From contig NZ_JAQZAT010000007.1 of the NCBI RefSeq assembly GCF_028736925.1, positions 186,001 to 250,000 on the forward strand: a DNA stretch of 64,000 nucleotides. Direction: 5' to 3'. Source of the DNA: Flavivirga sp. 57AJ16. Lineage in GTDB: Bacteria > Bacteroidota > Bacteroidia > Flavobacteriales > Flavobacteriaceae. This document shows positions 10,308 through 28,607 of the stretch, one piece after another; within the stretch, counting starts at the first letter, position 1, and the number at the start of each line of letters is the position of its first letter. The notes under the pieces are model-generated. The model worked only from the letters and a program-made list of their open reading frames with translations, did no database searches and was not told the DNA's origin. The position numbers and the translations under genes are program-made.

Positions 10308-10334
10308 AAATTTTAACCTTTAAATTATAAGAGA

Positions 10335-11522: not shown

Positions 11523-11624
11523 TACCTTGATATCATAGCACATATAAAACCGTTAAAAATAAAAACCATGATGCTAAATACATCATTACACAATTAATTT
11601 ATTAATAAACCTTTAAAAAAAGAC

Positions 11625-12716: not shown

Positions 12717-13013
12717 GTTCATTTTAATCAAAAATAAATGTTTTTAAAATTATAAAAATAGAGAAACTAATTATCATCAGTTTTGATATATGAATTTTTA
12801 GGGGTAGGGTTATGGGGTTCTAGAGACAAAAAGACATCAAAAAAAACGCCGAAGATTATTCTTTGGACAGCAAGTCTTTGCCATGGAGGGCCATCGGTGC
12901 ATCACTTATTGCATCAGAAAGTAACTAGTACAAACTACATCCAATTAAATCAATTTCAAATAAAGAGGAAATCGTTATGTTACCTTATTTGGACTGAGGT
13001 ATATCCAAACGAA
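12717..13013 (+). pseudogene. Degenerate coding remnant of unknown identity
   Basis: Between the GH5-like gene and convergent pckA, one plus-strand frame reads coding-like fragments (SLPWRAIGASLIASESN, a stop, then KLHPIKSISNKEEIVMLPYL, a stop). The composition looks like real protein rather than random AT-rich DNA. I do not recognise the family. It is probably the eroded 3' end of another PUL gene. Confidence 0.3.
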
Positions 13014-14576
13014 TTAATGTCGAATAGGCCCTGCATTTATGATTGCTTGGTTTGTTTCAGACTCAAAATTTTTAAAGTTATTTTGAAATTCGCCAGCAAG
13101 TTCATAAGCCTTTTTGTAATAAGCTTCATCATTGTTCCAAGTTTGTCTTGGACTTAATACACTATCTGGAACATTTGGACACTTTCTTGGTTGGGCTACT
13201 TTAAAGACACTATGGGTATGATAATCTTTAGGATTAATATCAGGGAAATACCCGCTCAAAACGGCATTAATCATTGCTCTCGTGTATTTTAACTCCATGC
13301 GTTTGCCAACTCCATAAGGTCCACCAGTCCAACCTGTATTAATTAACCATACTTTAACTCCTGTCTCTTTAATTTTATTATTTAGCATATTTGCATAAAC
13401 AGATGGGTGTAAAGGCATAAATGGAGCTCCAAAACAGGCTGAAAACTCTGGTTGCGGTTCTTGTATGCCTTCTTCCGTTCCTGAGATTTTAGCTGTATAG
13501 CCCGATATAAAATGATAGGCCGCTTGCTCTGGGGTCAATTGGGACATGGGAGGGAGAACGCCAAAAGCATCTGCTGTCAAAAAAAAGATGTATTTTGGGT
13601 TATTGCCAATGGATGGTATTTGGATATTCTCGATATGGGAAATTGGGTAGCTAACTCTCGTATTTTTTGTAATGGCACTATTGGAATAATCAACATGGCC
13701 TTCATTGTCTATGATGACATTTTCTAATAAAGCTCCTTTTTTTATAGCACCAAAAATCTCAGGTTCTTTAGATGCTTCAAGATTAATTACTTTTGCATAG
13801 CATCCTCCTTCAAAGTTAAAAATTTTATTTTCGGGAGTCCAGCCATGTTCATCATCACCAATTAGTTTTCGTTTTGCATCGGTAGATAGCGTGGTTTTAC
13901 CTGTACCACTCAAACCAAAAAATATAGCCGTTTCACCATTGTTGCCTACATTGGCACTACAGTGCATCGGTAGCACATTTTTTTGGATAGGAAGTATAAA
14001 ATTAAAAACAGAAAACATGCCTTTTTTAATTTCACCTGTATATCCAGTACCTCCAATTAAAATTATTTTTTCAGTAAAATTAATGATTGAAAAATTTTCA
14101 TTGCTTGTGCCATGCTTTTCGGGAATGGCTTTAAACCCAGGGGCATTATATATGACCCATTCAGCTTTAAAATTTTCTAACTCTGAAGCCGTAGGTTCTA
14201 TAAACATATTTCGAATAAATAAATCGCTCCAGCTATATTCAGCATACGTTTTTATAGAAACTTGGTAATTGGCGTCTGCTCCTAAAAAAGAATCTCTTAT
14301 GAATACCTCCTTATCATTAAAATAATCTAACATGTCTACTTTAAGGTTATGGAAGTGTAAACTTGAAAAGGGAATATTAACAGCGCCCCACCAAACCTTA
14401 TCTTTTGTTAAGGAGTCTTTAACTATATAGCGATCCTTTGGGGATCTACCCGTAAAGCTGCCCGTTTTAATGGCCAGAACACCGTTATATGTTAGGTCTT
14501 CGTTTAACTTATTGACACTATGGTTAATCAAATTTGTTTCTGATTCTTGGTAATGGTGTTTTTTAGAAAAACTCAT
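13014..14576 (-). CDS. pckA: Phosphoenolpyruvate carboxykinase (ATP)
   Basis: Catalyses oxaloacetate + ATP to PEP + CO2 + ADP, the entry to gluconeogenesis from TCA-cycle acids (EC 4.1.1.49). The 520 residues are standard length. Motifs seen: RSPKDRY (44-50, substrate loop), the P-loop GLSGTGKTTLS (221-231), the metal-binding LIGDDEHGW (to 246), and the C-terminal LINTGWTGGPYG plus RMELKYTRAMI. It is transcribed in the same direction as the SusCD/esterase/dicarboxylate-transporter locus, 232 bp downstream of its last gene, probably from its own promoter. A metabolic link (C4 acids imported, then converted to PEP) is plausible but inferred. Confidence 0.97.
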   Translation of the reverse strand: MSFSKKHHYQESETNLINHSVNKLNEDLTYNGVLAIKTGSFTGRSPKDRYIVKDSLTKDKVWWGAVNIPFSSLHFHNLKVDMLDYFNDKEVFIRDSFLGADANYQVSIKTYAEYSWSDLFIRNMFIEPTASELENFKAEWVIYNAPGFKAIPEKHGTSNENFSIINFTEKIILIGGTGYTGEIKKGMFSVFNFILPIQKNVLPMHCSANVGNNGETAIFFGLSGTGKTTLSTDAKRKLIGDDEHGWTPENKIFNFEGGCYAKVINLEASKEPEIFGAIKKGALLENVIIDNEGHVDYSNSAITKNTRVSYPISHIENIQIPSIGNNPKYIFFLTADAFGVLPPMSQLTPEQAAYHFISGYTAKISGTEEGIQEPQPEFSACFGAPFMPLHPSVYANMLNNKIKETGVKVWLINTGWTGGPYGVGKRMELKYTRAMINAVLSGYFPDINPKDYHTHSVFKVAQPRKCPNVPDSVLSPRQTWNNDEAYYKKAYELAGEFQNNFKNFESETNQAIINAGPIRH

Positions 14577-14808
14577 TTTGAATATATTTATAAATATTAG
14601 TATAATCCTTGAGGAATAAAACCACCTTTTATAGCTTAAGGTGATTTTAAATGTTGCATTGAAAAGTATAGCTGTTGTAGAGTATTATCTTTTTATAAAA
14701 GTTGATAATCTTAAAGTACTGAAGTTGATTTAGACAGATTCATTTCCTTTTGGAATTTATATTGAAGACCTAGAAAGCATGTAAATGAATGGCTCTTTTA
14801 TAATAATT

Positions 14809-15696
14809 TTACCTGATTATTATTTTATTGGTTGAAGAACGACCACTTATTGAAACTTTTAATATGTACAGCCCAGAACCAACAGAACTAACGTTCAGCA
14901 CATCGGAGTTTAATTGCGTATTCAAAACATTTCTTCCCATGACATCAAATAGCTCTACATTTTTAACTGTAGACAAAGTAGAGCTAATATTTACAATGCC
15001 ATTATTTATAGGGTTAGGGTATATGGTCAATTCTGGTTTAGAAAAGGTTTCGGTAGATAGTGTCCAACCAGAACCAGAACCTAGAGGATAAGTGCCTCCC
15101 AAACCGTTTAAAAAAGCTTCTATTCCAGCTCCTCCTTGGCATGCTGTTAATCCATCAAGGGAGTTTTTTCCACTATAATCCCAATGATTCTCGTTCCATG
15201 TGCCATCTTCCATACCTGATTTTCTTGATACTACTGAATCATCATGCTCCCATATGGTATCATCATCGGCATCGGTATCTGTTTTGCCAAATTGACTTAC
15301 CACATTGCCGTTTAAAACTACTTGATATCCATCATCGCCATTTGTAGAAGTGCTGGTTAAAATAGTATTGAAACCCGCCATAGCACTATTAGTTTCAAAA
15401 ACCACACCTGGGAATTCTGCCTGCATTAAACCTAAGTCCCTAATAATGTAAACAAATTTATTGGAAATTACCCCAAAGCCTGAAACGTCTATTTGATTAT
15501 CAGACCACAAACCTCCATTTAACATGTAATTTAAAACCACTTCCGTGCTAAAATCAACAGTCCCATCAACATATAGTTCTACAGATTTAACAAACGGGTC
15601 TGAACAATCAGCTTCAATAATTTTAGTTATAGTGACATTTTTTTGAGCAAAACTCGTAAATGACATTAAAAAAAGTAAAAAACAAAGTTTTTTCAT
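14809..15696 (-). CDS. T9SS-sorted secreted protein with a lamin-tail-like domain
   Basis: 295-residue exported protein: signal peptide ending near FAQ18, a central domain about 20-215, and a C-terminal type IX sorting domain (about 222-295, LTIYPNPINNG ... GSGLYILKV ... NKIIIR) that sends it to the cell surface or medium. The central domain (VELYVDG, NGDDGYQVVLNG, WNENHWDYSG, SLDGLTACQGG) resembles the two repeats in the lipoprotein at 17228-19003 (NGDDAIELF, TWTYGGIDC) and is probably the same lamin-tail-like fold. It is the last gene of the minus-strand SusCD locus. The function is unknown; binding or attachment is likely. Confidence 0.75.
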   Translation of the reverse strand: MKKLCFLLFLMSFTSFAQKNVTITKIIEADCSDPFVKSVELYVDGTVDFSTEVVLNYMLNGGLWSDNQIDVSGFGVISNKFVYIIRDLGLMQAEFPGVVFETNSAMAGFNTILTSTSTNGDDGYQVVLNGNVVSQFGKTDTDADDDTIWEHDDSVVSRKSGMEDGTWNENHWDYSGKNSLDGLTACQGGAGIEAFLNGLGGTYPLGSGSGWTLSTETFSKPELTIYPNPINNGIVNISSTLSTVKNVELFDVMGRNVLNTQLNSDVLNVSSVGSGLYILKVSISGRSSTNKIIIR

Positions 15697-15787
15697 AATA
15701 ATTGAATTTAAGTTTAATAGGTTATAAAAAAATAAGGGACATTAGGCTGTCTTTCAATCTATCTTCACAAGATTATAGCTTCAAAAA

Positions 15788-17164
15788 TTATTGACGATCA
15801 ATTAAGTATTGTTTAAACTCAGAGGAGTTATACATACCATTGGCATCATGCCCTACATTATTAACAATGATTTTTTCATGGTTATTTGTTGCCCCATAAA
15901 AAGTTTGCATATATAAGTAAATGTTTTCGCCTCGTTTTAATCGGTTTTCTCCTAAAAGTGTGGCTTGACAATCTGTTGTGTTCAATGAGCCCTCGGTCGA
16001 GGTGTCATTACTGCCCAATAAATACGTTGTTTTTCTGGTTACTTGTTGCTCAGTTATTACAGACTGCTCAATACCATCGAGATATGGTATTGAAAATGCA
16101 TATCCATAAGGCCAAAAATCATACCCCGAACAACCTGTAGGTGTTATAAATTGTTGTGAGTTTTCATCATATCTTAACCCATCTGGATAATAAAAATATT
16201 GATTATTAGCGATGCTGTATTCAAAATTAATATCTGCATAGGTATTTTCGGCTCTATTGGCCAAAGCATAATGTTGTACAAACGCTGCTCCAGAAGAATG
16301 TCCTGTTACAAATATGGTTGTTAAATTTGGGAAATTACCTGAAGCAACTATCTTTTCAATGATAGCATCTATAACTGTGAACGAACTTATAGAAGCACTG
16401 GGATTACTCGAATTTGCACCTTCTCTCCATCCATTATCCCAATATAAATCATTGCCGGTTGCTGCTGAACTATCTTTAAAATATGGCGATATAAATAATG
16501 TGTTTTCCTCCATATCAAGACTTTTTAAGGAAGAAGCCATATATGAGAAATAATCGTTTGCATTTCTTTGTAGACCATGTACAACAATAACGAGCTGGTT
16601 TATTGAATTGTAAGTAAAAGCTGAATCATCTATAAAATCATAATTACTATACATGTCAAAATCGAATTCTGCTCCAGAACCATTAGTTAACGGCATCGAT
16701 TGTATACAAGCATCGCTTCCGTTTAAACAGGGTGTTTTTCCTAAGTTGGTTACATAAGATAGTGCTATGCCACTTTGAAAAAATTCTCCATTTGGACCTA
16801 AATCACCTGATGGTATTGATAAATTATATATTGCATTAACTTCCATTTGAGCAAGCATTATTGTTGCCTTTGTGGTAGCATTCGAATATGAAATTGTATA
16901 ATCAAGCGCTACAGATCCATCTGTTATTGAAAGTAATCCTTCAAATTTAGAAGGTTCAATTTGTGAGGAAAAGGCGATCTCTATAATTGAATTTACGGGG
17001 ATGTTTATGGCACCGTCTTCAAGGGGATTGCCATTTGCAGTGATGGACAAAACGGACAATGAGAGCAAATTATTGTCATCATCATTACAGCCAACCAAAA
17101 ATGATAAGCAGAAAATGAATGAAAATACACGAACCCTATTAAAAATATTTCTTGTTGTATTCAT
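15788..17164 (-). CDS. Surface lipoprotein with Big_5 domain and alpha/beta-hydrolase domain
   Basis: 458-residue lipoprotein (LVGC, Cys26). An Ig-like Big_5 domain spans about 35-140. The rest is an alpha/beta-hydrolase: oxyanion HG (196-197), nucleophile elbow GHSSG with S290, and likely acid D387 (LGSNDTST) and base H439 (VGHDANG), in the order expected for an esterase or lipase. Several Cys (146, 153, 345, 399) may form disulfides. Big_5 domains often link surface enzymes to their substrate. It lies between two lamin-tail-domain proteins in the SusCD locus. Likely a surface esterase; the substrate could be a polyester, an acylated glycan or a lipid. Confidence 0.75.
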   Translation of the reverse strand: MNTTRNIFNRVRVFSFIFCLSFLVGCNDDDNNLLSLSVLSITANGNPLEDGAINIPVNSIIEIAFSSQIEPSKFEGLLSITDGSVALDYTISYSNATTKATIMLAQMEVNAIYNLSIPSGDLGPNGEFFQSGIALSYVTNLGKTPCLNGSDACIQSMPLTNGSGAEFDFDMYSNYDFIDDSAFTYNSINQLVIVVHGLQRNANDYFSYMASSLKSLDMEENTLFISPYFKDSSAATGNDLYWDNGWREGANSSNPSASISSFTVIDAIIEKIVASGNFPNLTTIFVTGHSSGAAFVQHYALANRAENTYADINFEYSIANNQYFYYPDGLRYDENSQQFITPTGCSGYDFWPYGYAFSIPYLDGIEQSVITEQQVTRKTTYLLGSNDTSTEGSLNTTDCQATLLGENRLKRGENIYLYMQTFYGATNNHEKIIVNNVGHDANGMYNSSEFKQYLIDRQ

Positions 17165-17227
17165 AAAGTATTTTATTTATAAGATGTAACCCTATTTAGT
17201 TACCATGACTTAAGTTTATAATTCAAA

Positions 17228-19003
17228 TTAATTACAAGCAGGATAGACACATGCTGAACTTTGTGTGCTTGTTGAACCAGCTGCACAATCTATACCGCCT
17301 GTTATCCAATTACCATTTAGTTTATAGCCCCAAGAACCTTCATAATCCCAACTTTGTCCTGTGCCATCTACATTCGCATCACCATAGGTTTCAATAACAT
17401 CATTACCTTGAAAAAGTTCTATGGCATCGTCACCATTTTGATTCATTGAGCCAGTCTCAATGATATGCTCAAAACTATTGATACATGATCCAAAATAACC
17501 AGCAATTGTGGCTTGTTCTCTTGCTAAAAGAATATCATCTCCCTCTGATACGGACATCACAGGAAAAGTGAATTCTATGCCATCGGTTCCACCGCCATTA
17601 TTGGCAACACCTATACTGTACAAGCTTAAATCTGCAATATTTTTTTGTGCTTTTAAATGCACAGCCTTACCACCATTAGTACCACTTCCATCCCAGGAAA
17701 TTGCCATTATACCTTGAAGTGTTAATGCAGGTGAACAAATGGGGTATACACAAGCAGAACCCTGCGAGGTTGTAGAGCCTATTGAACAATCTATGCCTCC
17801 ATAAGTCCAAGTGCCATTAAACTTATAGGCCCATGAGCCACTATATTCCCATACCTCACCGGTTCCATCAATATCGGCATCTCCATAGGTTTCAATAACC
17901 GTAGTGCCACTGAACAATTCTATAGCATCATCTCCGTTTTGACTAATGGATGTATTTGCCTGGAGTATATGTTCAAATTCGCTATTACAACCACCAAAAT
18001 AAGCTGAAATCAATGTAGGCTCCCTAGCTACAAGAATATCGTCTCCAGCAGAAACTGATTGCGCAGGAAAAGTATACTCTATACCATTAGTACCACCGCC
18101 ATTATTGGCAACGCCCAAACCATATATGCTCAAATCTGCAATATCTTGATTTACAATTAAATGAATAGCTTTTCCGTCATTACTACCCGATCCATCCCAA
18201 GTTAAAGCCATAATACCCTTTAATGATATTGCCGGTAATTGCTCTTTTAATAGGATTGTTAACTCTTGGGAGTCACTATTTGCGTTTACCACACTACTCA
18301 GCGATAAGGATATAGTTTCATCTCCTTCATTTTCACCATCCACTATTGTGGTTAAAGAAATAGTTGCAGATGTGCTTCCTGCGGGGATAGTGATATCCAG
18401 ACTGCCATTAACATTATAATCTAAAGCTTCTGATGCCGTTCCTCCTAACACAATAGTTGCTGTGACATCATCTTGAGATACTTTATCAAGACCAGCTGTT
18501 ATAATTGCTGTACTGCCATCTTCCTCTAAATCTGTTACGTCGCTTGAAAGACTTAATACTGGTGGTACAAAAGCAGCTGTTGTAAAACTAAGCGATAAAG
18601 ATGCTTCTAAAGATTCTCCTGTTAAACCATAATCACCAGCTGGTAGCATTAAGGTATAAGTTGTTTCATAATCCAAAGAACTGGTTGGAATTATTGTAAT
18701 TGTTGAATTTGTATTAGAAAAATCCAAAGTGTAATCTACTGCTCCAGAAGTTGAGCTAAATGTTAGGGAAGATGAGAGTAAATCGGTTTTTAGTGTATGT
18801 GAAAAAATAATTTCTATGGTAGCGTTTATATTTACATTTTCTATGCCATTAACAAACTTTACACCATTAATGGTTTTAGCCATCGCTGCTATGGTATTGT
18901 CAACAATAGTAGTAGTATCATCGTCTTCACACCCTACAATTAACGTAGAAAGTAATCCCAAAGGGATAAGAAAGTAAAAAGTAATTTTTTTAATGAATTT
19001 CAT
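17228..19003 (-). CDS. Lipoprotein with Big_5, Calx-beta and two lamin-tail-like domains
   Basis: 591-residue surface lipoprotein (IVGC, Cys25) built only of adhesion-type modules: Big_5 (about 38-140), a Calx-beta-like domain (about 150-250, AIITAGLDKVSQDDVTATIV ... NEGDETISLSL), then two repeats of about 160 residues (about 262-425 and 426-591). Each repeat carries LKGIMALTWDGSGSN or its like, GVANNGGGT, SAGDDILVARE, QNGDDAIELF and GGIDC. The repeats resemble lamin-tail domains. No catalytic motif is seen. It probably binds the substrate or anchors partner enzymes. It lies directly downstream of the DASS transporter (40-bp gap). Confidence 0.7.
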   Translation of the reverse strand: MKFIKKITFYFLIPLGLLSTLIVGCEDDDTTTIVDNTIAAMAKTINGVKFVNGIENVNINATIEIIFSHTLKTDLLSSSLTFSSTSGAVDYTLDFSNTNSTITIIPTSSLDYETTYTLMLPAGDYGLTGESLEASLSLSFTTAAFVPPVLSLSSDVTDLEEDGSTAIITAGLDKVSQDDVTATIVLGGTASEALDYNVNGSLDITIPAGSTSATISLTTIVDGENEGDETISLSLSSVVNANSDSQELTILLKEQLPAISLKGIMALTWDGSGSNDGKAIHLIVNQDIADLSIYGLGVANNGGGTNGIEYTFPAQSVSAGDDILVAREPTLISAYFGGCNSEFEHILQANTSISQNGDDAIELFSGTTVIETYGDADIDGTGEVWEYSGSWAYKFNGTWTYGGIDCSIGSTTSQGSACVYPICSPALTLQGIMAISWDGSGTNGGKAVHLKAQKNIADLSLYSIGVANNGGGTDGIEFTFPVMSVSEGDDILLAREQATIAGYFGSCINSFEHIIETGSMNQNGDDAIELFQGNDVIETYGDANVDGTGQSWDYEGSWGYKLNGNWITGGIDCAAGSTSTQSSACVYPACN

Positions 19004-19043
19004 GATATGTTTAGTTTTAGTTTTTTTAATATTTCTTTTCGAT

Positions 19044-20525
19044 TTAAGGGCTTTTTGGTTTTATAAATTCAGTAAAATCACTAGAATCAAAGCCCCAAAC
19101 TGTAGGTAAAAAATAATAGACCATAATGGTTAAAAATAAAATCGATATGATGTTCATCCAAACACCACTTTTTATCATATCTGGGATTCTTAAATAACCT
19201 GACCCGAATACAACCGCATTTGGTGGTGTGGCGACTGGCATCATAAAAGCACAAGACGCTGCTATGGTACAAGAAACCATAAGTATGTATGGATTTATGT
19301 TTAATGATATAGCAATGGGAGCCAAAATGGGTAATAACATGGCTGTTGTTGCTAAGTTAGAAGTAAACTCTGTAAAAAAGTTTACCAAAGCTATAATTAC
19401 AAGTATCAGTAAGATTAACGATAACCCTTGAAGCATGGTCATTTGAGAGCCTAACCATGATGCCAATCCTGTAATTTCAAACCCAGCAGCAAGTGCCATG
19501 CCTCCCCCAAATAAAAGGATAATGCCCCAGGGTAATTTCACGGCATCTTCCCAAGTAATTATGCGTTTTTTAAAATCGCTAGCTGGTACTACAAACAATA
19601 ATACACCAGCAGCCATAGCTATAATGGTGTCATCAATAAAAGGGAAAAAACGCTGCAAAATAAAGGATCGAGTTATCCAACAAAAGGCTGTTAATACAAA
19701 AATGACCGATACTATTTTTTCTTCTTTCTTCATCGGTCCAAGCACTAATAACAACCTACTAATCTCTTGTTTCCCTCCCGGAAATTCATTTTGCTTAAAC
19801 TTAAATGCCACTTTGGTTAAAAATAACCATGCTATGATCAATAGCGGAATTGCTATAGGTAAACCAAATTTTAACCATTGTAAAAAGGTAATATCAATGC
19901 CATAAATTTCTTCTACGTACCCCGCAAAAACCAAATTTGGCGGTGTGCCAATAAGTGTTGCCATACCTCCTATGGAAGCACTATAAGCAATACTGAGCAT
20001 AAGTGCTTTGCCAAAAATTAAATTTTCATCCTCAATGGTGTTGGGGTTATCTTGAAGCTGTGCCACTATAGACATTCCTATGGGAAGCATCATTACTGCT
20101 GTAGCTGTATTAGATATCCACATAGAAAGAAATGCTGTGGCTACCATAAACCCTAAAATAATTTTGGAAACATTAGTGCCTATTATTTTAATAATATTTA
20201 AGGCAATACGCTTATGTAAGTTCCATTTTTCAATAGCAATGGCAAGTATGAAGCCACCCATATATAAGAAAATATATTTATGACCGTAAGATGCTGTTGT
20301 TGTTTGTAAGTCGACAGCTCCTGTCATTGGAAATAATATAATAGGTAGTAAAGCAGTAACAGCTATTGGAACAGATTCTGTTACCCACCATAGTGCCATC
20401 CACAATGTTATTGTAAGTAAGTTGTAAGCTGCATCTGGCATTCCAACGGGTGGATCAAAACACTGTAGAAGAATAAACAGTAAAGGTCCAGAAATTAGAA
20501 ATAAACTTTTTTGTATGGACTTCAT
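19044..20525 (-). CDS. DASS-family sodium/dicarboxylate (SLC13-type) symporter
   Basis: Inner-membrane transporter of the divalent anion:Na+ symporter family, which imports succinate, malate, fumarate, citrate or related anions. The 493 residues hold about 11-12 hydrophobic segments, and both halves carry the family's SNT-type Na+/substrate motifs: WISNTATAVMMLP in the first half and TEFTSNLATTAMLLP in the second. The start overlaps the end of the SGNH gene by 4 bases (ATGA), implying translational coupling. Its presence inside a SusCD operon is unusual and suggests that the released products include organic acids. Confidence 0.9.
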   Translation of the reverse strand: MKSIQKSLFLISGPLLFILLQCFDPPVGMPDAAYNLLTITLWMALWWVTESVPIAVTALLPIILFPMTGAVDLQTTTASYGHKYIFLYMGGFILAIAIEKWNLHKRIALNIIKIIGTNVSKIILGFMVATAFLSMWISNTATAVMMLPIGMSIVAQLQDNPNTIEDENLIFGKALMLSIAYSASIGGMATLIGTPPNLVFAGYVEEIYGIDITFLQWLKFGLPIAIPLLIIAWLFLTKVAFKFKQNEFPGGKQEISRLLLVLGPMKKEEKIVSVIFVLTAFCWITRSFILQRFFPFIDDTIIAMAAGVLLFVVPASDFKKRIITWEDAVKLPWGIILLFGGGMALAAGFEITGLASWLGSQMTMLQGLSLILLILVIIALVNFFTEFTSNLATTAMLLPILAPIAISLNINPYILMVSCTIAASCAFMMPVATPPNAVVFGSGYLRIPDMIKSGVWMNIISILFLTIMVYYFLPTVWGFDSSDFTEFIKPKSP

Positions 20526-21304
20526 TTCTTTTCTGTATTAATGGATTCAATATGGGATGCTTCTACGAGTTGTTTGTAAAAGGCCGCATTTTCAGGTAAA
20601 ACAAAAGAGAGATATAGTTTCTCACCGTCTTTATCTGTGGTTGTTACCCTATTTGGTATATCGGATACTGATTTTCCAGTTAGCGTTTTATAAACAATGA
20701 GTGCTATTAAATAGCTACCATCAGAAGATGGGTGTTTATCATCAAAATATAAATTTAAATCAGGTCTTAATTCTCTAGCTTTCATCCAAATAGGTCCAAC
20801 AGGAATAACGTTGGTATTCAACGCATTTGCTAACTTTAAATATTCTTTTGTAATAGTAGGCTGCATTAAAGGATTTGATTTATATGCCCATGTTAAATAA
20901 AAGATTGGTTCAGCTCCAAGCGAGCGAACTAATTCTGAAAATTTCTTCGCATATGCTTCAAAACGTTCTGGTGTGTCTATGGTGCTTATGCTATGATCTC
21001 CTAGAATGACATAGTCCCAATGACCTTCTTTTAAAAGTTTTCTTGTAACAGTGCCTTTTTCCTCGTTCCAATGTTGTTTAAGATTACTGCCCCCAACTGT
21101 AGATTGATGAATATCAAGTAAAACATCTTGAGTTTCTCCCATGGCTTTTACCAATTGGGGCATGTTCCAAAAATAGGTAAAACTGTTTCCTACAAATAGT
21201 ATTCTAAGGGGGGCTTCCTCTTGTGAGAATGCAGAATAGGGTAATAGCAAAACTATTGCAATAATTAAAAGGAAATTCTTTTTTATAATTATAAATGGTG
21301 TCAT
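20522..21304 (-). CDS. SGNH/GDSL-type hydrolase, exported
   Basis: 260-residue exported protein with a signal peptide or anchor (about 9-28). SGNH features: nucleophile S41 in ILFVGNSFT (the GDSL block as GNS), oxyanion G71/G72 in STVGGSN, and catalytic DxxH at D188-H191 (FDDKHPSSDG). The usual block III N is replaced by LGDHS, as seen in some Bacteroidota members. Family members are esterases, often deacetylating glycans. It lies 17 bp downstream of susD and overlaps the DASS transporter by 4 bp. Likely removes or cleaves ester groups in the periplasm. Confidence 0.8.
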   Translation of the reverse strand: MTPFIIIKKNFLLIIAIVLLLPYSAFSQEEAPLRILFVGNSFTYFWNMPQLVKAMGETQDVLLDIHQSTVGGSNLKQHWNEEKGTVTRKLLKEGHWDYVILGDHSISTIDTPERFEAYAKKFSELVRSLGAEPIFYLTWAYKSNPLMQPTITKEYLKLANALNTNVIPVGPIWMKARELRPDLNLYFDDKHPSSDGSYLIALIVYKTLTGKSVSDIPNRVTTTDKDGEKLYLSFVLPENAAFYKQLVEASHIESINTEKK

Positions 21305-21320
21305 ATTCTTAAAATGGGAT

Positions 21321-22724
21321 CTATTGGTTTATTGGTGTTTTTTCAAAAAAGTCGGGTATGGGATTAGGAATATTACTATTTCTATCAATTTCTGATTGTG
21401 GATAAATAAAACGTTGAGGTAAAGTACTTCCTGTGTTAGGTGTAATAGGGACTCGAACTATCGACTCGCTTTCTGTTCTTCGAGTATCATTAAACACTTC
21501 TATCTGTCCAAATAAGGTAACGTAACGCTCTTGAAGGATCTCTCTTAGAAGCGCGTTATCAGCACTAATGCTATCTGGGTTTTCAATGCCACCAGAAGCA
21601 AAATCTGCTCCAATATAGGCGTCATACAAAATATCAGAAGTATTGGCATTCGTTAAATAACCCCCACTAGCCATAAAGGCTCTAAAATTATTTAAGTGGG
21701 ATAAGCCATTATTAAAACCATTTGTTCTAAACCCAGCTTCGGCTAAAATTAAAAGATTTTCTTGATATGTTACTAAATCTGCTGATGCAGATTGAGCAGC
21801 ATATCCGTTAGTAATGTTAGGTTGAACACCTAAAGCGTTTGTTGTAAAGTAGAAATGATGTCTTCCTAATTCATTGGTTTTAGAATTTCCTCTGTACGTA
21901 GAGCTTGCTGGGTCTGTTAAACCAGCCATGAAATCTGATACAACAAGGTCGCTTTGTCTTACTTCAATAGCAAAAAATTGATAATTTAAATTCGAATCTT
22001 CAGCAGCTGTACCATGAGGCCCGAGCATGCTATTGTTTAATGAACTAATGCCATTTTGCGCAGCAGCATAAGCGCTTCCATAATCTTTTATGTGCATATA
22101 GAATCTAGCTTTTAAGGTATATGCACATTCAATCCAAGCTTGCGCATTACCGTCAAAATAAATATCAGAACCAGTTGCGGGCCTTCCCGAACCTTGCTGT
22201 AAATTTGAAATGGCGCTATCTAATAGCGTTTGTACTTTAGAATAGACTTGGGACTGATTTTCGAACATAGGGTTTTGAATTTCTACATTAACGGCCTCAT
22301 CATATGGAATGTCTCCATAAAGTGAAGCTAGCGTTCCAAAAGTTTGAGCTTGTAAAACTTGTGTAATTCCAATGGTTATGGCTCCGGCATTATCATCTTG
22401 TGCTGTTTGTTCTGCTACAATGGCATTTCTTAATGCATCATTAAATCCATCATTCCAAAGGCCATCAAAATCACTTGTGGTTACTGAGTATTGACTAAAA
22501 CCAAGATGTTGTCTATCTATTCCTGTGTATTGTCCCGCAAAAATACTGGCCCTTCTAGCATTTTCTCCAGTTTGGAAAAGCATATTGCCAACCTCGGCCC
22601 CAGTTAAAATATTTTGATAAGCACTTTGAGTTTGGTTATTAGGATCATTATTGAGGTCTTCTACCAGTTTACTACAAGACTGTGTTAGAATAAGTATAAG
22701 GGATAATAAAATAAATGATTTCAT
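21321..22724 (-). CDS. SusD/RagB-family outer-membrane lipoprotein (second locus)
   Basis: Surface binding lipoprotein paired with the SusC at 22816-26064. The start at 22724 is chosen because MKSFILLSLILILTQSC is a clean lipoprotein signal (Cys17). The frame opens 29 codons earlier, but that stretch is hydrophilic and would block export. The 467-residue body resembles the SusD-like group with ITIGITQVLQAQTFGTLASLYGDIPYDEA-type helices (TPR-like) and NALLREILQERYVTLFGQIEVFNDTRR near the C-terminus. The ligand is unknown. The gap to the SusC stop is about 90 bp. Confidence 0.92.
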   Translation of the reverse strand: MKSFILLSLILILTQSCSKLVEDLNNDPNNQTQSAYQNILTGAEVGNMLFQTGENARRASIFAGQYTGIDRQHLGFSQYSVTTSDFDGLWNDGFNDALRNAIVAEQTAQDDNAGAITIGITQVLQAQTFGTLASLYGDIPYDEAVNVEIQNPMFENQSQVYSKVQTLLDSAISNLQQGSGRPATGSDIYFDGNAQAWIECAYTLKARFYMHIKDYGSAYAAAQNGISSLNNSMLGPHGTAAEDSNLNYQFFAIEVRQSDLVVSDFMAGLTDPASSTYRGNSKTNELGRHHFYFTTNALGVQPNITNGYAAQSASADLVTYQENLLILAEAGFRTNGFNNGLSHLNNFRAFMASGGYLTNANTSDILYDAYIGADFASGGIENPDSISADNALLREILQERYVTLFGQIEVFNDTRRTESESIVRVPITPNTGSTLPQRFIYPQSEIDRNSNIPNPIPDFFEKTPINQ

Positions 22725-22815
22725 AAGTAAATATTTATTATGTGTTTTTTTATATGAAGTCGCTTTACCTTCATTTGTGTTTGCGACAAAAATTTGTGAT
22801 AACGCTTTCATAGTA

Positions 22816-25800
22816 CTAAAGGTTTAATGTTACACTAAAAAGAAAAGACTTTGTGCCAGGGTTGTTAAAGTAATCTAACCCTCTTGCTGCACTAACTCCA
22901 GATAAATTGGTATCTGGGTCATTTCCTTCAAAATCAGTCCATAAAAATAAATTTCTTCCTGTTGCAGTAAATTCTATAGACTTTAAACTTGTTGATTTTT
23001 TTAACCAATCGGACTTCCATAAGTAAGATAGGGCAAGCTCTCTTAATCTTGTCCAAGAGCCATCTTCGATGTATAGTTCATCATTACCAGCACCAAAAAA
23101 ACCTCCTTCACCATTATACCAAGTTTCTGTTAATGCTACAGGCCCTGCTCCAAAATCGGCTATATTACCACGAAAGGTTTCGCCAATATTTATGATGTTG
23201 CCATTGGATTCAAAATAATTTCTTGTGGCAGTTACTTCATTGCCAGTATCGTACCAAGTACCTAAATCTCTCATTACGGATTTTGTTCCTGCATAAATAT
23301 CGGCACCTTGATAGGTTTCGAATAAAACAGATAACCTGAAATTTTTATATTTAAATGTACTTGTGATACCACCTTGCCAATCTGGATTTGGGTCACCAAT
23401 AACGCCTTCTAATTGATCTTGTTCTGGGAAACCAAATTCATCGTAAACTATAGATCCATCATCATTTCTAAGTGTTCTTGAGCCCCATAAAACACCTAAA
23501 GGCTGACCCTCAACAGCTCTGGAGCTTATCGCTGCCAATCCTCCTAAATTTAAGGATTCTGCACCAGCTAAATCTGTAACTTCATTTTTTACTTTTGTAA
23601 AGTTGGCATCAATAGACCAAGAAAAATCATTGGTATTTAATATTTTATAACCTAAATCCAATTCTAGACCTTTATTTTCTATTTCTGCGCCATTTGTGTA
23701 GATGGCAGAATACCCAGTTGAGTTCGCTACAGGGAAATCCAAAAGAACATCTTCAGTTACATTTTCAAAATAGGTTAAACCAAAAGATAGTTTATTATTA
23801 AAAAACCTTAAATCTGTCCCAATTTCAAATTCTTTTTTTCGTTCTGGTCTAAGTGATGAATTTCCTCTGTTAGTACTTGGCACAAATGCGCCATTACCAA
23901 ACAATCCAGAATTTAAACCGCCGCCTAAAGCATCACTGTATGTTGGTGACACAAAAATATTAGAGGTATTATAGCGTGCAGGTTGAACACCTACTTCTGC
24001 ATAAGAAGCTCTTATTTTACCAAAGGACAATATATTGCTTTCCTTAAATATATCTAATTGAGAGAATTGCCATGCTAAAGATGTGGATGGAAACAAAAAG
24101 GGGGTGTCTGAATTGTCTCCAAATGTAGATGCGTTTTCAATTCTAATGGTACTGTCAATATAAAACATATCATAAAGTGAAAACGATAATGAGGAGTATA
24201 ATCCTGCTGTTCGCTCTTGTCCAAACGTACTGCTTACAACGGTATTTTCGATAAGCGTATTATCAATATCCCGGATACCACTATCTACATCTAAAAATTG
24301 AATAAAACCATTGCCTTCAACACCATTAACGGTTCTAGATTTACTATTATAGTTAAATCCTAAGAGAAAAGAACCGTCAACAATGTTTTCTAAATTAAAA
24401 GTGGTTTTTGCTATAAAATCAGTATTAAAAATGGTATTCGAAGCTGTAGATTGATCTATAAAACCTGCTGTAAAATCTCCTGCTGCAGATCCTGGTGTTA
24501 TAAATTCAGATCTTGTTTCGTTGTAATGGTCTACACCAGCTCTTGCTATGAATGTTAGCCAACTATTTGGCGATGTCATAAACTCAAAATTTGTGATAAA
24601 GCGATCTACCTTTGCTTTATTTTCTTGTTCATTAATGGTCCAAAGCGGATTATTGTAAGTAGCGGACCCATCTGCGCCCAATGGTTCTCTGTAAGACCTT
24701 TGCCTATTAGGAATTGGAGAACTATCACTTGATGCGTAGTAATCGCCTCGATAACCAGAAATATCAAAATCTGCTGGATTTCTGAGCAGTCCTAAATACA
24801 GCCCAGATGAATTGGCACCTAACCTAATACGGTTTGATGAGGTTCTTGTATAGGTTGAGCTTATTTTTAAACTCGTAGCTTCAGTAAAATTTTGTTTTGC
24901 ATTAAACCGAACTGTAGATCTTCGGTAATCGGAATTATTTTTTATAATTCCTTTCTGGTCCAAATCACTCAAACTAAAAAACATGGTACTTTTTGCAGTT
25001 CCCCCGCTTAAGCTCAAATTATTTTCTAAAAAATGCCCATTGCCAAAAACTTGGTCAAAGTTAGAATCGTTGTATATGGCTTGTGAGTTTTTATTTAAAA
25101 TAGGATAATAAATGCTTCCGTTCTGATCTAAATAAAATTCTCCTGAAGTATCAAAGTCATCATGACCACCCGAACGATCAGATATTAAATCTCCCCAAGA
25201 GTCTCTTGCCCTTTGGTCATAAACGCCATTGTCTCCTTGCCCATATTTTGTTTGAACTGGGTATTTCACATTAATCTGATCTAAAGAATACGTAGATTTT
25301 AAACTTATATTAAGCTTACTATTGTATTTACCGCTTTTTGTTGTAATATTAATAACACCACCTAAGGCTTGTGTTCCCCATAAAGCAGCAGCGGCGGCAC
25401 CTTTTAAAACCGTAATGGATTCTATGTCGTTAGGATTAATATCGTTAAGTCTTGACTCTTGACTAACACCACCTCTATCACTATTTCCACGAACATCATT
25501 ACTTATGGGGATGCCATCTAAAATGATTAATGGTTGACTATTTCTAGTTATTGACGAAAGTCCTCTAATTTGGATAAATGATCCAGCTCCAGGATCGCCA
25601 GAATTTCTGGATATTCGAACTCCAGATGATTTACCCGAAAGCGCATTTAAAACATTGGCCTCTCCAGATTCTGAAACAGCTCCTCCTTTTACGGTAGAAC
25701 TGGCATAACCTAAATTATCTTTTTTCTTAGTAAACCCTATAGCATTTACAATAACAGCATCTAAATCTTCAATAGCTTCCACCATGATAACATCGATAAC

Positions 25801-26064
25801 ATTTTTCGTGCCTACATCTATGGTTACTGGCTTAAAACCTATAAAGCTAAATGTTAAACTAGGATTTTCTGTTTTTGGTGATATGGAATAAAGCCCATCA
25901 AAATCTGTTATGGCTCCGTTAGATACGTTGCTCTCTATAATACTGACACCAGCCAAAGGGAATCCTTTTTCATCTGTTACGACACCCGTAATAACATTTT
26001 GGGATAATAATGTTTGAAATGAAAAGAGGAATAGAAAAAATATTGTTTTAATTATACATTTCAT
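22816..26064 (-). CDS. SusC/RagA-family TonB-dependent transporter (second locus)
   Basis: 1082-residue outer-membrane transporter, first gene of the minus-strand locus. Signal peptide ends near SQ22, followed by the carboxypeptidase-regulatory-like domain (ITGVVTDEKGFPLAGVSI, FDGLYSI), the plug with IQIRGLSS, LIILDGIPI and AAAAALWGTQALGGVINITTKSG, and a barrel ending in FSVTLNL. The SusC signature is variant here (LDAVIVNAIGFTKKKDN). It is about 80 residues longer than the transporter of the first locus. The divergent gene at 26269 is the probable regulator. Confidence 0.95.
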   Translation of the reverse strand: MKCIIKTIFFLFLFSFQTLLSQNVITGVVTDEKGFPLAGVSIIESNVSNGAITDFDGLYSISPKTENPSLTFSFIGFKPVTIDVGTKNVIDVIMVEAIEDLDAVIVNAIGFTKKKDNLGYASSTVKGGAVSESGEANVLNALSGKSSGVRISRNSGDPGAGSFIQIRGLSSITRNSQPLIILDGIPISNDVRGNSDRGGVSQESRLNDINPNDIESITVLKGAAAAALWGTQALGGVINITTKSGKYNSKLNISLKSTYSLDQINVKYPVQTKYGQGDNGVYDQRARDSWGDLISDRSGGHDDFDTSGEFYLDQNGSIYYPILNKNSQAIYNDSNFDQVFGNGHFLENNLSLSGGTAKSTMFFSLSDLDQKGIIKNNSDYRRSTVRFNAKQNFTEATSLKISSTYTRTSSNRIRLGANSSGLYLGLLRNPADFDISGYRGDYYASSDSSPIPNRQRSYREPLGADGSATYNNPLWTINEQENKAKVDRFITNFEFMTSPNSWLTFIARAGVDHYNETRSEFITPGSAAGDFTAGFIDQSTASNTIFNTDFIAKTTFNLENIVDGSFLLGFNYNSKSRTVNGVEGNGFIQFLDVDSGIRDIDNTLIENTVVSSTFGQERTAGLYSSLSFSLYDMFYIDSTIRIENASTFGDNSDTPFLFPSTSLAWQFSQLDIFKESNILSFGKIRASYAEVGVQPARYNTSNIFVSPTYSDALGGGLNSGLFGNGAFVPSTNRGNSSLRPERKKEFEIGTDLRFFNNKLSFGLTYFENVTEDVLLDFPVANSTGYSAIYTNGAEIENKGLELDLGYKILNTNDFSWSIDANFTKVKNEVTDLAGAESLNLGGLAAISSRAVEGQPLGVLWGSRTLRNDDGSIVYDEFGFPEQDQLEGVIGDPNPDWQGGITSTFKYKNFRLSVLFETYQGADIYAGTKSVMRDLGTWYDTGNEVTATRNYFESNGNIINIGETFRGNIADFGAGPVALTETWYNGEGGFFGAGNDELYIEDGSWTRLRELALSYLWKSDWLKKSTSLKSIEFTATGRNLFLWTDFEGNDPDTNLSGVSAARGLDYFNNPGTKSFLFSVTLNL

Positions 26065-26268
26065 CTTGTTTTAGTTTTAAAAGTTTAGTTTTACTGCTAA
26101 AATTACCCTTTAGTCGAATGTGAAGCTTAGTGATGAATTACTAATCGTAAAGGTAATTTTTTGTCAATTATATAGTTTTTTTGATTAATTATTGATGTTT
26201 TAGCAATTTTTATCAATTTTTATCAATTTTAATTAGTTTTAACTAAATTTAATTCTTTACAATTTTAA
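26065..26268. promoter_or_regulatory. Divergent control region between second susC and its putative regulator
   Basis: 204-bp AT-rich divergent spacer. It contains an inverted repeat aaaattaccc-ttt (26099-26111) with aaaggtaatttt (26149-26160), 12 paired bases with one bulge and a spacing of about 37 bp. It also has two direct copies of tttttatcaa (from about 26207) and a dyad ttagtt-tt-aactaa (26233-26246). These are candidate operators for the divergently encoded regulator. No promoter core was assigned with confidence. Confidence 0.4.
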
Positions 26269-27426
26269 GTGGAAAGTCATAAAAACACCGAAGAACTGCA
26301 CAGAAGTTTTATTGATAAACTCTCAATAAGATATGGTGCATTTGATGGTTTAAGAAACCAATTTGAATCTACCAGTAACTCTATTATAGCAAGGGATTTA
26401 TTTTATAGTGATTCTCAGTTTTCAAGATTGATTAATGGCACTGCATCAGAAGGGGAATTTAAAAGAGCTTTAGGTAATATTGAACGCTTACTTGATTTAG
26501 ATAAGCTAAAAACAAGTAAGCCTAGTGATTTGAAAAGCACTAAAAAAAAGATAGTTATAAAGCGTCGTTTTTTAATCGTTGCTACTGGTGTTATTGTTTC
26601 TTTAGCAATAGTATCATTTTTATATTTTAAAGAATATTTTTCTACAAAAATGGCTAAAGTCATAGTCAGTGATTCGAAATATGATATGCTAAAATGGAGT
26701 TTTGAGAATAACTTTATTCAACCTTATGTTAAGCTAAAAGAATTGCCGGATGATTGTTATTACCCATGTTATAAATATCAAGGTAAATGGATTTTAAAAA
26801 ATGAATATAAGATTCCATTCTACAGAGAAAGAAACGGATTTCATTATGTAGCAAAAGAAGCTATAATGTATGCCAGATGTATGGACGAAAGAGGGGATAG
26901 GGGTGAATCTTTTGAAGGTTATGAATATCAAAAACATGAAATTTGGTATGATAAAAGAGAGTTTCCCATAGATTCTTTTTTGACCAAAGGTTCCAATACC
27001 CAAATAAGAGAACTATATAATTTTTCAAATTTAGATGAAGATGACAACTTTGTGAAAATAGCCTACGTTCATACATTCTTTAGAACAGAATTCAAAATAG
27101 ATAGTAGTTTTATACAACGAACAGGAAAAGCACTTGGTAGAGATATTGAATTTGTAAATGATAAAGTGTTAAATGACCAATTAAATAATGAAAATTCTTT
27201 AAACAGTATTAAAAATGAAATTAAAGCAATTTCTATAAATCGTTTGGAAGATTATTCTAAGCCAATTACTTGTAACCCAGCTTTAGCACCTGATGTTAAT
27301 TTTAACCTCATTGAGGAAGGGGATGAAATGAGTTTTAATTGTCATTTTAGTATTGGTAATTTTATAGTGAATTATAAAAAAACGTATGTTTTTAGCGATC
27401 AGTATATTAATAATTATTGTAGATAA
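26269..27426 (+). CDS. Predicted membrane-anchored DNA-binding regulator
   Basis: 385-residue protein with a GTG start; no ATG fits before the conserved-looking N-terminus. Residues 30-75 (IARDLFYSDSQFSRLINGTAS...) look like a compact helix-turn-helix, preceded by a helical segment. A basic stretch (KKKIVIKRR) leads into a single membrane helix at 101-120. The C-terminal 265 residues would be periplasmic, with Cys near 152, 156, 210 and 330. The layout (cytoplasmic HTH, one helix, periplasmic sensor) is like ToxR/CadC-type one-component regulators. No kinase or sigma domains are seen. Its position divergent from susC suggests it senses the locus substrate. I do not recognise the family. Confidence 0.55.
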   Translation: MESHKNTEELHRSFIDKLSIRYGAFDGLRNQFESTSNSIIARDLFYSDSQFSRLINGTASEGEFKRALGNIERLLDLDKLKTSKPSDLKSTKKKIVIKRRFLIVATGVIVSLAIVSFLYFKEYFSTKMAKVIVSDSKYDMLKWSFENNFIQPYVKLKELPDDCYYPCYKYQGKWILKNEYKIPFYRERNGFHYVAKEAIMYARCMDERGDRGESFEGYEYQKHEIWYDKREFPIDSFLTKGSNTQIRELYNFSNLDEDDNFVKIAYVHTFFRTEFKIDSSFIQRTGKALGRDIEFVNDKVLNDQLNNENSLNSIKNEIKAISINRLEDYSKPITCNPALAPDVNFNLIEEGDEMSFNCHFSIGNFIVNYKKTYVFSDQYINNYCR

Positions 27427-27530
27427 ATTGCTGGGCTAAACTTATGGTTCCTTCAGCAAAACACGGCCTATTTTCATACTCTAGTATTATTGGTTACTAT
27501 ATTTGATTTGACAAAAAGAAGTGACATTTA

Positions 27531-27688
27531 TAGCTAAGTCGCTATAAAATGGCAAACTATATTTAGAAATAAAAAATTGAAGTTCAAGGCAAAAAGCGTA
27601 GGCATAGCCTAGTTACGGCGAGTATTTTTAACGAATAAATTCGGTTTTTTACTCTGAAGGTTCATGTTGTTTTATATTGATTTAGCTA
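27531..27688 (+). mobile_element. Miniature element B, copy 1 (TA target duplication)
   Basis: 158-bp non-coding element. Inverted ends tagctaagtcgctataaaa and tagctaaatcaatataaaa match at 16 of 19 positions. It is flanked by TA on both sides (27529-27530 and 27689-27690), the duplication typical of IS630/Tc1-mariner transposases. The second copy (62665-62966) has exactly the same length once its own insertion is removed. No IS630-type gene is present in the window. Confidence 0.75.
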
Positions 27689-27859
27689 TATAGTTTTACG
27701 CATAGAACTACCCACCATATTATAGGTATCAAATATGTACCTAATTAGTATAAGGATTCGTAGATACTATAAAGGAACTTTATGTATAGGCAAATAGTCT
27801 AAAATAATTGATGCCTATTTGTATTCTTTTCTTGAAATGTACTTTATGTATAAATAATA

Positions 27860-28037
27860 CTGAATGTCCGTAATCATACATAATGCTATTTTTGTCATTC
27901 AGAATACTTCGACTACGCTCAGTACAGGCTATAGTGAAGAATCTGTTGATAATCAATGAGATCCCTCGAGACCCCTCGTTGCCTCGGGATGACAAAATCA
28001 ATATATTTTTGGTTTATGATAAATTACGGACAATCAA
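27860..28037 (+). mobile_element. Miniature inverted-repeat element A, copy 2
   Basis: 178 bp, the same ends and core as the copy at 10019, with about 9 extra bases from a local duplication (ccctcgagacccctcg). It is flanked by the 8-bp direct repeat aaataata (27852-27859 and 28038-28045), an independent target duplication that supports transposition of this family. Confidence 0.75.
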
Positions 28038-28294
28038 AAATAATAACATTATACCAAATGAATTTAAAAATGATTGGTAATAAATTTGAAATATATTTTC
28101 TTTAGATGAGATAAAAAGCATAAGCATAGCCTAATTATGGATATGTTTTTTATTGAAATATAAAGGAAATAGAAATCGAAGATTCACGAACACCAATTAT
28201 AAAAATAAAAGATAGTGAGCTAAACGGATTTAACCAGTTATTTTGAAGTTTATTTGGTATTATATCTTTTTTTATGCAAAGAAGACTAACATTA

Positions 28295-28414
28295 ATTCCA
28301 TTTTTCCCGTATTTTTTGATAAGCGATTCACATTTGCGACTCTACGGTTTTAACAGATATATTTAAGTCATCAGCTATCTCTTTGTACTTTAAGCCATTA
28401 TATTTATTAACCAC
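28295..28414 (-). pseudogene. Relic of an ECF (FecI-like) sigma factor, region 4
   Basis: On the minus strand a frame reads GLKYKEIADDLNISVKTVE, then SQM, a TGA stop (28328-28330), then IAYQKIREKW. This is the region-4 helix-turn-helix of ECF sigma factors (KYKEIAE-LGISVKTVE-QM--AL-KLR). The stop could come from a single CGA-to-TGA change. Upstream the match ends abruptly at a block reading cttgggttcggcacgggtgg on the same strand. Only the C-terminus survives, and no anti-sigma partner is present. Confidence 0.55.
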
Positions 28415-28558
28415 CCGTGCCGAACCCAAGGTAGGCAGTGTAATGAAACACTAAAAGTTGATTCAATAATGTTTGTAAAAACCAACACTAAGGTTGTTTT
28501 ACTAATTTAATGCAAGTAAAAACCAACAGACAAGCATATTTATATTAAATATTTTTAG

Positions 28559-28582
28559 TATATTTGTTAGGAAATACTAACA
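28559..28582 (+). promoter_or_regulatory. hipBA promoter core with overlapping operator-like dyad
   Basis: tatatttg (28559-28566) fits the Bacteroidota -7 consensus TAnnTTTG. The perfect dyad tgttag-gaaata-ctaaca (28565-28582) overlaps its end and the expected transcription start. This is the geometry expected if HipB represses its own operon. The -33 element is not clear. Confidence 0.5.
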
Positions 28583-28607
28583 TTAACATAAATATATAGT
28601 GTTAAAG

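Follow-up and report, generated by a model that had tools for sequence, protein, structure and literature searches.

A conserved SusCD locus with two hydrolases and a dicarboxylate-type symporter in Flavivirga sp. 57AJ16: a candidate system for C4-dicarboxylic-acid polymers

Introduction

The cargo usually assigned to SusCD loci is a glycan, and loci free of carbohydrate-active enzymes (CAZymes) are often left unassigned. One such locus lies in the 64,000-nucleotide stretch of Flavivirga sp. 57AJ16 analysed here (the window, positions 186001–250000 of contig C50 of genome G000), where a SusC/SusD pair stands with two hydrolases, a DASS symporter and a divergent regulator (REG), raising the question of what such a system takes up. 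An earlier sequence-only reading had proposed an ester-linked polymer or conjugate, cut at the surface and finally imported as free acids. We find that the gene set is kept in other genomes, and we see about even chances that this SusCD locus serves not a glycan but a C4-dicarboxylic-acid polymer or conjugate, the links of which are probably esters.

A SusCD gene set without glycoside hydrolases is conserved

Protein families were called by Pfam and NCBIfam profile matches against the cut-off of each model, which confirmed the families of all genes described in the sequence-only reading, each at the place given there. The minus-strand run encodes, in order, a SusC-type TonB-dependent transporter (22816–26064; TIGR04056, 605.7 bits against a cut-off of 368.25), a SusD-like lipoprotein (21321–22811; PF12771 SusD-like_2, 103.3 bits), an SGNH hydrolase of DUF4886 (20522–21304; PF16227, 38 bits against a cut-off of 26.7, with GNSFT and DDKHPS motifs), a DASS sodium-coupled symporter (19044–20525; TIGR00785, 322.3 bits against 198.6), an adhesion-module lipoprotein (17228–19003), an alpha/beta-hydrolase lipoprotein (ABH, 15788–17164) and a protein with a type IX secretion system (T9SS) tail (14809–15696; PF18962, TIGR04183). 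REG (26269–27426, plus strand, 385 aa) faces this run. Gaps are short: 4 bp between SusC and SusD, 16 bp between SusD and SGNH, 40 bp between DASS and the adhesion lipoprotein, 63 bp from there to ABH and 91 bp from ABH to the T9SS gene, with a further 232 bp to pckA. The SGNH and DASS reading frames overlap by 4 bp (20522–20525), as had been noticed earlier, and the same overlap recurs in G002, G302, G207 and G412. We infer that SusC through ABH form a single operon; the number of terminator-like sites within 12000–30000 (14, against a shuffled 9.7 with a standard deviation of 2.8) says little. No glycoside hydrolase or polysaccharide lyase was found by Pfam and NCBIfam among the seven minus-strand proteins of 14809–26064, in agreement with the first reading, yet GH43- and GH2-like genes do occur outside the run, in convergent orientation, at 8972–12716.

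Searches with REG as an alignment query gave matches in 8 of the 397 family genomes and in 4 of the 395 phylum genomes, G000 and G207 being common to both sets. Seven family genomes are strong carriers (G000, G002, G302, G176, G207, G256 and G412). SGNH and DASS adjoin REG in all seven, together with orthologous SusC and SusD in six, the adhesion lipoprotein in six and ABH in five. The ABH slot of G207 is occupied by a PahZ1-like hydrolase (E 1.8e-51 to 6ve6), and G412 has an unrelated SusCD pair (SusC 26% identical) and neither lipoprotein, with REG, SGNH, DASS and pckA retained. SGNH matches occur more widely, in 69 of the 397 family genomes (E 1e-15 or better), and flanks were fetched for 20 of the match places. 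The full set is present in a Salegentibacter metagenome-assembled genome (L010); loci L008 and L009 were taken as those of G002 and G302 and counted once.

The set also persists in other gene orders and at greater distance. In the small genome G100 (1.4 Mb, 87% complete), SusC, SusD, SGNH, the lipoprotein, ABH and DASS share a 10-kb contig in permuted order, REG being unmatched there in the family-genome search. G487, from another family of the same class, carries a REG relative (30%) facing SGNH, DASS, SusC (66%) and SusD (58%), followed, again in permuted order, by the lipoprotein (38% over 226 aa), after which comes ABH (33% over 413 aa). G780, which shares only the phylum, has REG (46%) facing SGNH, DASS, SusC (39%) and SusD (33%), and neither ABH nor the adhesion lipoprotein was seen at that locus. 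A further REG relative, in G014, stands opposite DASS (42%) and a putative porin, with no SusCD there. Only 4 of 60 near-relative genomes have ABH, G004 and G007 among them. Conservation across genomes shows that the arrangement is not due to chance; restriction of the set to the window genome, which the earlier reading had named as fatal to its proposal, was looked for and is not what we observe.

At 12 distant SGNH loci (L049–L060, 32–41% identical), inspection by eye revealed no SusCD, DASS or ABH of the window kind alongside. The surroundings of an SGNH gene of G269 (L044:10059–10823) hold SusCD pairs and sulfatase-like and GH105-like genes, these labels being given by eye.

ABH has a predicted PahZ1/LpqC fold

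The structural model of ABH (pLDDT 85.5) found its best match in PahZ1 of Sphingomonas KT-1 (Z 25.3, root-mean-square deviation 3.1 over 249 residues), followed by PahZ1 of Pedobacter KP-2 (Z 25.3) and LpqC (3d0k, Z 24.4), with the fourth entry at 16.0. Foldseek returned the same top three, the solved PahZ1 entries being 6ve6 and 9o7u. Sequence similarity is weak (E 0.046 to 6ve6; 25% over 116 aa to the G207 enzyme). The Ser-Asp-His set that had been called intact is indeed present as S290, D387 and H439: among 10 relatives S290 and H439 are invariant and D387 is kept in at least 90%, the G100 protein deviating at this position. ABH is a predicted polymer hydrolase of the PahZ1/LpqC fold. Assignment as a short-chain polyhydroxyalkanoate (PHA) depolymerase was rejected, with 18.4 bits to NF050058 against a cut-off of 150.

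In G000, acidic residues follow the lipobox in both ABH and the adhesion protein (CNDDD, CEDDD), a pattern less clear in some ABH orthologues (G256, G100). Such residues resemble the surface-export signal of Bacteroidetes as presented in part of one report (PMC5080379), and both lipoproteins are probably surface-exposed. The window SGNH protein begins with a signal-like stretch and has no lipobox, which we read as indicating a probably periplasmic enzyme. In the sections consulted of a review (PMC9487903), no activity is known for DUF4886, and most functionally characterised SGNH enzymes act on carbohydrates.

DASS and pckA point to C4-dicarboxylates

Among solved proteins DASS is, by sequence, closest to the SLC13 di/tricarboxylate carriers (SLC13A2 315 bits, SLC13A5 290, SLC13A3 288, SLC13A1 272) and probably carries C4-dicarboxylates. 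Relatives occur in 101 plasmid records. Three plasmid loci were examined, all from Pseudoalteromonas (L061–L063), and there a DASS 47–48% identical to ours is preceded by a sensor-type ATP-binding protein, a sigma-54 regulator and a porin, an arrangement that, we presume, recalls DctB/DctD dicarboxylate sensing. These units resemble the window locus in uniting DASS, an outer-membrane channel and local regulation, but differ in their two-component regulation and in having no polymer hydrolase or SusCD in the stretches examined.

The SusCD-linked and PahZ1-linked groups of a 47-row DASS tree (the latter described below) each require two label changes, two of them forced, when the groups are counted against each other and ungrouped rows are excluded; G329, G100 and G014 are long branches of unsure placement. 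Either DASS met these partners repeatedly or the clusters were exchanged.

The gene pckA (13014–14576, minus strand; PF01293), an extra copy for the ATP-type phosphoenolpyruvate (PEP) carboxykinase, adjoins three of 11 SusCD-type loci (G000, L010 and G412). For seven of the other eight it lies elsewhere in the genome, and G100 gave no match. G000 and G412 have three copies each, the locus-linked copy being extra. To account for the four cluster-linked copies in a 19-row tree, three changes are required, two of them forced; the G000 and L010 copies form one group (99/99), and G412, on a long branch, and G329 fall elsewhere, so that locus-linked pckA comes from at least two pckA lineages. This recurrent linkage of an extra copy fits C4-acid import followed by gluconeogenesis, the role first suggested for it from the window. 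Another pckA copy stands directly beside a larger permease (about 613–617 aa where complete) at L093, L094 and L095 (G000 C11, G002 C3 and G412 C1).

Sister clusters join DASS to PahZ1-like hydrolases

The flanks of 24 DASS relatives were examined (L109–L132), and two of them, in G082 and G102, have a PahZ1-like lipoprotein gene immediately upstream in the same direction. The G082 protein, as query, matched in 39 of 329 genomes. Among its best 11 matches (E 2.1e-81 or better, query genome included) the gene directly adjoins DASS in nine (G082, G315, G131, G026, G102, G203, G173, G307 and G184); as the query owed its selection to its neighbour, a fair count has to drop G082 and G102 and comes to seven of nine. 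Of the remaining two, G207 has one gene between the partners, and in G329 some 10 kb separate them within a single cluster. Weaker matches include G208, with the same kind of cluster, and G304, where the PahZ1-like gene stands beside SGNH rather than DASS; several others lie, by coordinates only, on contigs other than the DASS contig. In G304 (L173:1663–3379) the SGNH relative (33%) overlaps the PahZ1-like gene start as called, a further pairing of the two.

Twelve PahZ1-type regions were fetched, with full family analysis on L172 only and the other clusters judged by likeness. L172, from G329, encodes a MocR-type regulator (324.1 bits, barely above the PdxR cut-off of 320), DcuC (E 7.9e-116), a beta-aspartyl-peptidase (TIGR01975, E 5e-119), two Porin_O_P proteins, an M14 peptidase and DASS, with pckA immediately after DASS. 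Example spans are L172:3290–17572, L167:1616–16019 and L174:2670–16306. The clusters L165–L174 are like the window locus in having DASS, a surface hydrolase, Calx-beta-type lipoproteins and a T9SS-tailed protein, with pckA in one. They differ in that porins and isoaspartyl dipeptidase replace SusCD and SGNH and, in L172, a MocR-type regulator replaces REG. Judged by their gene content, they are likely utilisation loci for beta-aspartyl polymers. In G307 and G184 (L163 and L164), genomes of 1.1–1.6 Mb, a lipoprotein gene lies opposite the PahZ1-DASS pair, joined in G184 by a Porin_O_P porin.

Isoaspartyl dipeptidase (TIGR01975) scored above its cut-off in 10 of 23 genomes searched: nine of the 11 PahZ1-DASS genomes (eight on the contig of the cluster; not in G307 or G184) and one of the 10 genomes with the window-type (SGNH-type) locus, namely G176, where it lies 1.8 Mb from the locus. 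G000 has no match above cut-off. The two cluster types thus share DASS, a PahZ1-fold hydrolase and adhesion modules and differ in the second hydrolase, SGNH in one and isoaspartyl dipeptidase in the other. We take this contrast to favour ester-linked over amide-linked cargo for the window locus.

The adhesion lipoprotein and the T9SS protein also lead to these clusters. The former has Big_5 above the Pfam cut-off, DUF5006 and Calx-beta below theirs, and a duplicated C-terminal repeat that is 44–51% identical to sister-cluster proteins. The lamin-tail label given to it earlier did not hold up, as Pfam places PF00932 in neither window protein; the domain is present in sister-cluster proteins (L172, L174), but outside the stretches that align to the window proteins. 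The T9SS protein is there in the window as described, but is an addition specific to this strain, with no counterpart in the other SusCD-type stretches searched (the G302 contig ends too early to judge). It is 75% identical over 213 aa to an L174 protein and 58% to an L165 protein; the gene is outside the conserved SusCD set and homologous to genes of PahZ1-DASS clusters.

REG faces a conserved array of 10-bp repeats

The REG model (pLDDT 76.1) has N-terminal helices, a long helix (residues 99–131) and a beta-rich C-terminal domain, which we read from sequence and model as a putative DNA-binding (helix-turn-helix-like) part, a membrane helix and a periplasmic domain. The divergent position of the regulator, as first described, is observed directly; its membrane attachment comes from this reading, which makes REG a probable membrane-tethered one-component regulator. 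Fold assignment was given up, the best Foldseek hit (OssO, E 1.3e-3, TM 0.20/0.41) being a faint hint only, with several lipocalin-like barrels below it at weaker E-values. Known regulators of polysaccharide utilisation loci (PULs) include hybrid two-component systems, ECF sigma/anti-sigma pairs and SusR. REG matched no Pfam or NCBIfam model and is not of these types; while the other parts of the locus belong to known families, REG is an orphan without a named one.

Between REG and susC lie four tandem direct repeats of 10 bp (26195–26234, minus strand; consensus GATAAAAATY) that score 35 of 40, a value reached by none of 300 shuffles; this is the sole site of at least 29/40 across the 64-kb window. 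Such arrays occur between REG and the operon in nine of 11 REG-bearing regions examined. Over these nine regions the word TAAAA(A/T/C) forms 18 pairs spaced by 10 bp and 10 pairs spaced by 20 bp (shuffled means 0.5, maxima 3), and the four-unit array scores 29–35 of 40, unreached by 300 shuffles in seven regions and reached once each in G002 and G207. The spacing scan pointed to 10 bp, and a repeat unit of 11 bp did not stand out. Scanning 359,304 bases of 17 loci at 29/40 or more returned ten sites, nine of them between REG and the operon and the tenth a REG-type array 59 bp upstream of pckA in G412. A pattern search of seven whole genomes with up to two mismatches found 11 sites, ten of which (overlapping, in seven arrays) lie in REG-operon intergenic regions and one elsewhere in G176; the reversed pattern had no site in these genomes. 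As the consensus was built from the same nine regions, this demonstrates uniqueness within the genomes and not independent discovery. Six PahZ1-type loci scanned have no array at 29/40 or more. The array is likely the operator of REG, which would bind the repeats.

Discussion

What, then, does the locus take up? The PahZ1/LpqC-like fold of ABH, together with the clusters that combine DASS, PahZ1-like hydrolases, DcuC and isoaspartyl dipeptidase, favours a dicarboxylate polymer or conjugate. We postulate that the adhesion lipoprotein and ABH hold and cut an anionic polymer at the surface, and that SusD and SusC would bring the oligomers across the outer membrane. A periplasmic SGNH hydrolase would then free the dicarboxylate, which DASS, with sodium, may take into the cytoplasm, where PEP carboxykinase could convert the oxaloacetate derived from it into PEP. 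REG would sense the released acid in the periplasm and act at the 10-bp array between REG and susC.

PahZ1 of Pedobacter KP-2 cuts the beta-amide bonds of poly(aspartic acid), and beta-polymalate, its ester analogue, is made by Aureobasidium and Physarum, with bacteria living on it reported (excerpts of PMC4456602 and PMC9210645, respectively). Beta-poly(L-malate) may tentatively be named as the best-fitting known natural polymer. Similarly tentative is a fuller proposal in which the whole SusCD system is specialised for the water-soluble polyester of a tricarboxylic-acid-cycle acid, beta-polymalate or an unknown analogue, with TonB-driven uptake of oligo-malate, and is controlled by membrane-tethered dicarboxylate sensors of a new family that act at the 10-bp tandem repeats. 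Polymalate-making Aureobasidium from mangroves is mentioned in a portion of one paper (PMC4528779); among the matches listed from open-licence literature on polymalate and marine bacteria, nothing dealt with polymalate in sea water. Of the cargoes guessed at earlier, the dicarboxylate (polymalate-like) polymer is thus favoured by the ABH fold and the sister clusters, and PHA is disfavoured by the depolymerase score. Cyanophycin was rejected as cargo: cyanophycinase is above cut-off in seven of 23 genomes and is otherwise absent, or lies off the cluster contigs, and G000 has no TIGR02069 match above cut-off.

Several observations weigh against a probably ester-linked dicarboxylate polymer or conjugate as cargo. 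ABH relatives of G004 and G007 (about 35%) belong to different SusCD loci, at which a DASS did not turn up, and the G269 SGNH, 64% identical to that of the window, is without DASS. DASS relatives are widespread (212 of 329 family genomes, E 1e-60 or better) and common without such partners, and SLC13A1, which we take to be a sulfate carrier, trails SLC13A2 by a small margin of 43 bits. Two REG-bearing loci have no array, G014 (24/40, reached by 110 of 300 shuffles) and G487 (none at 29/40). Isoaspartyl dipeptidase, present in the sister clusters, is a sign of aspartate rather than malate. The characterised PahZ1 enzymes, as far as the consulted text of PMC4456602 describes them, cut beta-amides, and the Comamonas polymalate hydrolase reportedly has no serine-esterase activity (excerpt of PMC9210645), an argument against assigning ABH and SGNH to its type.

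The main rival is a glycan locus. An oligosaccharide with dicarboxylate half-esters (succinyl, malyl or similar) would enter through SusCD and lose its esters to ABH and SGNH; the acid would be taken in by DASS, and the sugar would be cut by glycoside hydrolases whose genes lie elsewhere. We consider this reading possible but rather doubtful. The carbohydrate bias of known SGNH enzymes, the sulfatase-like and GH105-like neighbours of the G269 gene and the GH43 genes near the window, L010 and L047 loci speak for it, but the conserved set has no glycoside hydrolase, and clusters that have no SusCD also combine DASS with PahZ1-like hydrolases. Nor do the nearby GH43 genes qualify as part of the system: the five glycoside hydrolase proteins compared are not orthologous, the sole similar pair sharing 25% over 149 aa. 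That the cargo is instead a beta-aspartyl polymer or peptide, with ABH a PahZ1-like amidase and DASS or other carriers importing aspartate or aspartyl oligomers, seems unlikely to us. Both solved PahZ1 enzymes are among the best fold matches of ABH, the sister clusters carry isoaspartyl dipeptidase and DcuC, and G207 and G304 combine SGNH with PahZ1-like hydrolases; however, the dipeptidase is absent from nine of 10 window-type genomes, G000 lacks a cyanophycinase above cut-off, and the second hydrolase of the conserved set comes from an esterase-type superfamily.

The genes might also be loosely associated, SusCD, ABH and the adhesion protein serving one substrate, and REG, SGNH, DASS and pckA forming a separate acid-uptake unit that shares the spot by chance. 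G412, with the latter four beside an unrelated SusCD pair and neither lipoprotein, and G014, where a REG relative accompanies DASS without SusCD, would suit such a split, but G100 and G487 keep the set in a permuted order, and hydrolase-DASS pairs recur outside SusCD loci, which makes such a split improbable. A locus for an aliphatic polyester (PHA, cutin or suberin) is very improbable. LpqC, annotated as a polyhydroxybutyrate depolymerase, is the third-best fold match of ABH, but the PHA depolymerase model scored far below its cut-off, and DASS and an extra pckA are, from what is known of these families, unsuited to hydroxy-monocarboxylates; for cutin and suberin no supporting evidence turned up, no direct test having been aimed at them. 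The likeliest cargo remains a probably ester-linked C4-dicarboxylate polymer or conjugate.

Compared with known systems, the locus resembles the SusCD PULs of Bacteroidota in its SusC/SusD pair, surface lipoproteins, periplasmic hydrolase, inner-membrane carrier and local regulator, but its run is without a CAZyme, has a dicarboxylate-type symporter and is faced by a regulator outside Pfam and NCBIfam models. With the PahZ1 degradation of poly(aspartic acid) in Sphingomonas KT-1 and Pedobacter KP-2 it shares the ABH fold and, in G207, an enzyme of that type in the ABH slot; those enzymes were studied on synthetic poly(aspartate), in the part of PMC4456602 consulted, whereas ABH is distant in sequence and accompanied by SusCD, SGNH and REG. 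The cyanophycin utilisation locus, as outlined in passages of PMC10206079, likewise unites catabolism of an aspartate-based polymer with a transporter, but no cyanophycinase lies in or near the L165–L174 clusters or the window locus. The Comamonas acidovorans polymalate hydrolase, an outer-membrane enzyme that releases malate in a host living on polymalate, is reported without serine-esterase activity and is likened here by description only (excerpt of PMC9210645). The C4-dicarboxylate TRAP transporters beside uronate genes of NS5 bacteria, in the portion of PMC9122927 consulted, are a different system. Among the matches listed from open-licence literature we found no description of the SusCD gene combination with its likely cargo, and the literature searched held none of the PahZ1-DASS-DcuC-isoaspartyl-dipeptidase cluster.

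If the proposed cargo is correct, the range known for SusCD systems would widen to dicarboxylate polymers, DUF4886 would gain a first lead on its activity, REG would represent a new regulator family with a candidate operator, and the locus would serve as a genomic marker for acid-polymer use. The sister clusters suggest natural partners for PahZ1 enzymes so far studied on synthetic poly(aspartate), and would be the amide counterpart of an ester locus. Should both hold, some Flavobacteriaceae would carry dedicated machinery for using C4-acid polymers as carbon source.

Neighbouring genes

Further genes lie on either side of the locus. On the pckA side, the adjoining convergent locus (8014–12716, plus strand) opens with a SusD_RagB gene (8014–8757), which is followed by the GH43/GH2-like genes mentioned above. 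Past REG (28599–30256, plus strand), a small gene that by eye is probably of the helix-turn-helix type (28599–28961) precedes a HipA toxin-type kinase gene (28955–30256; PF07804).

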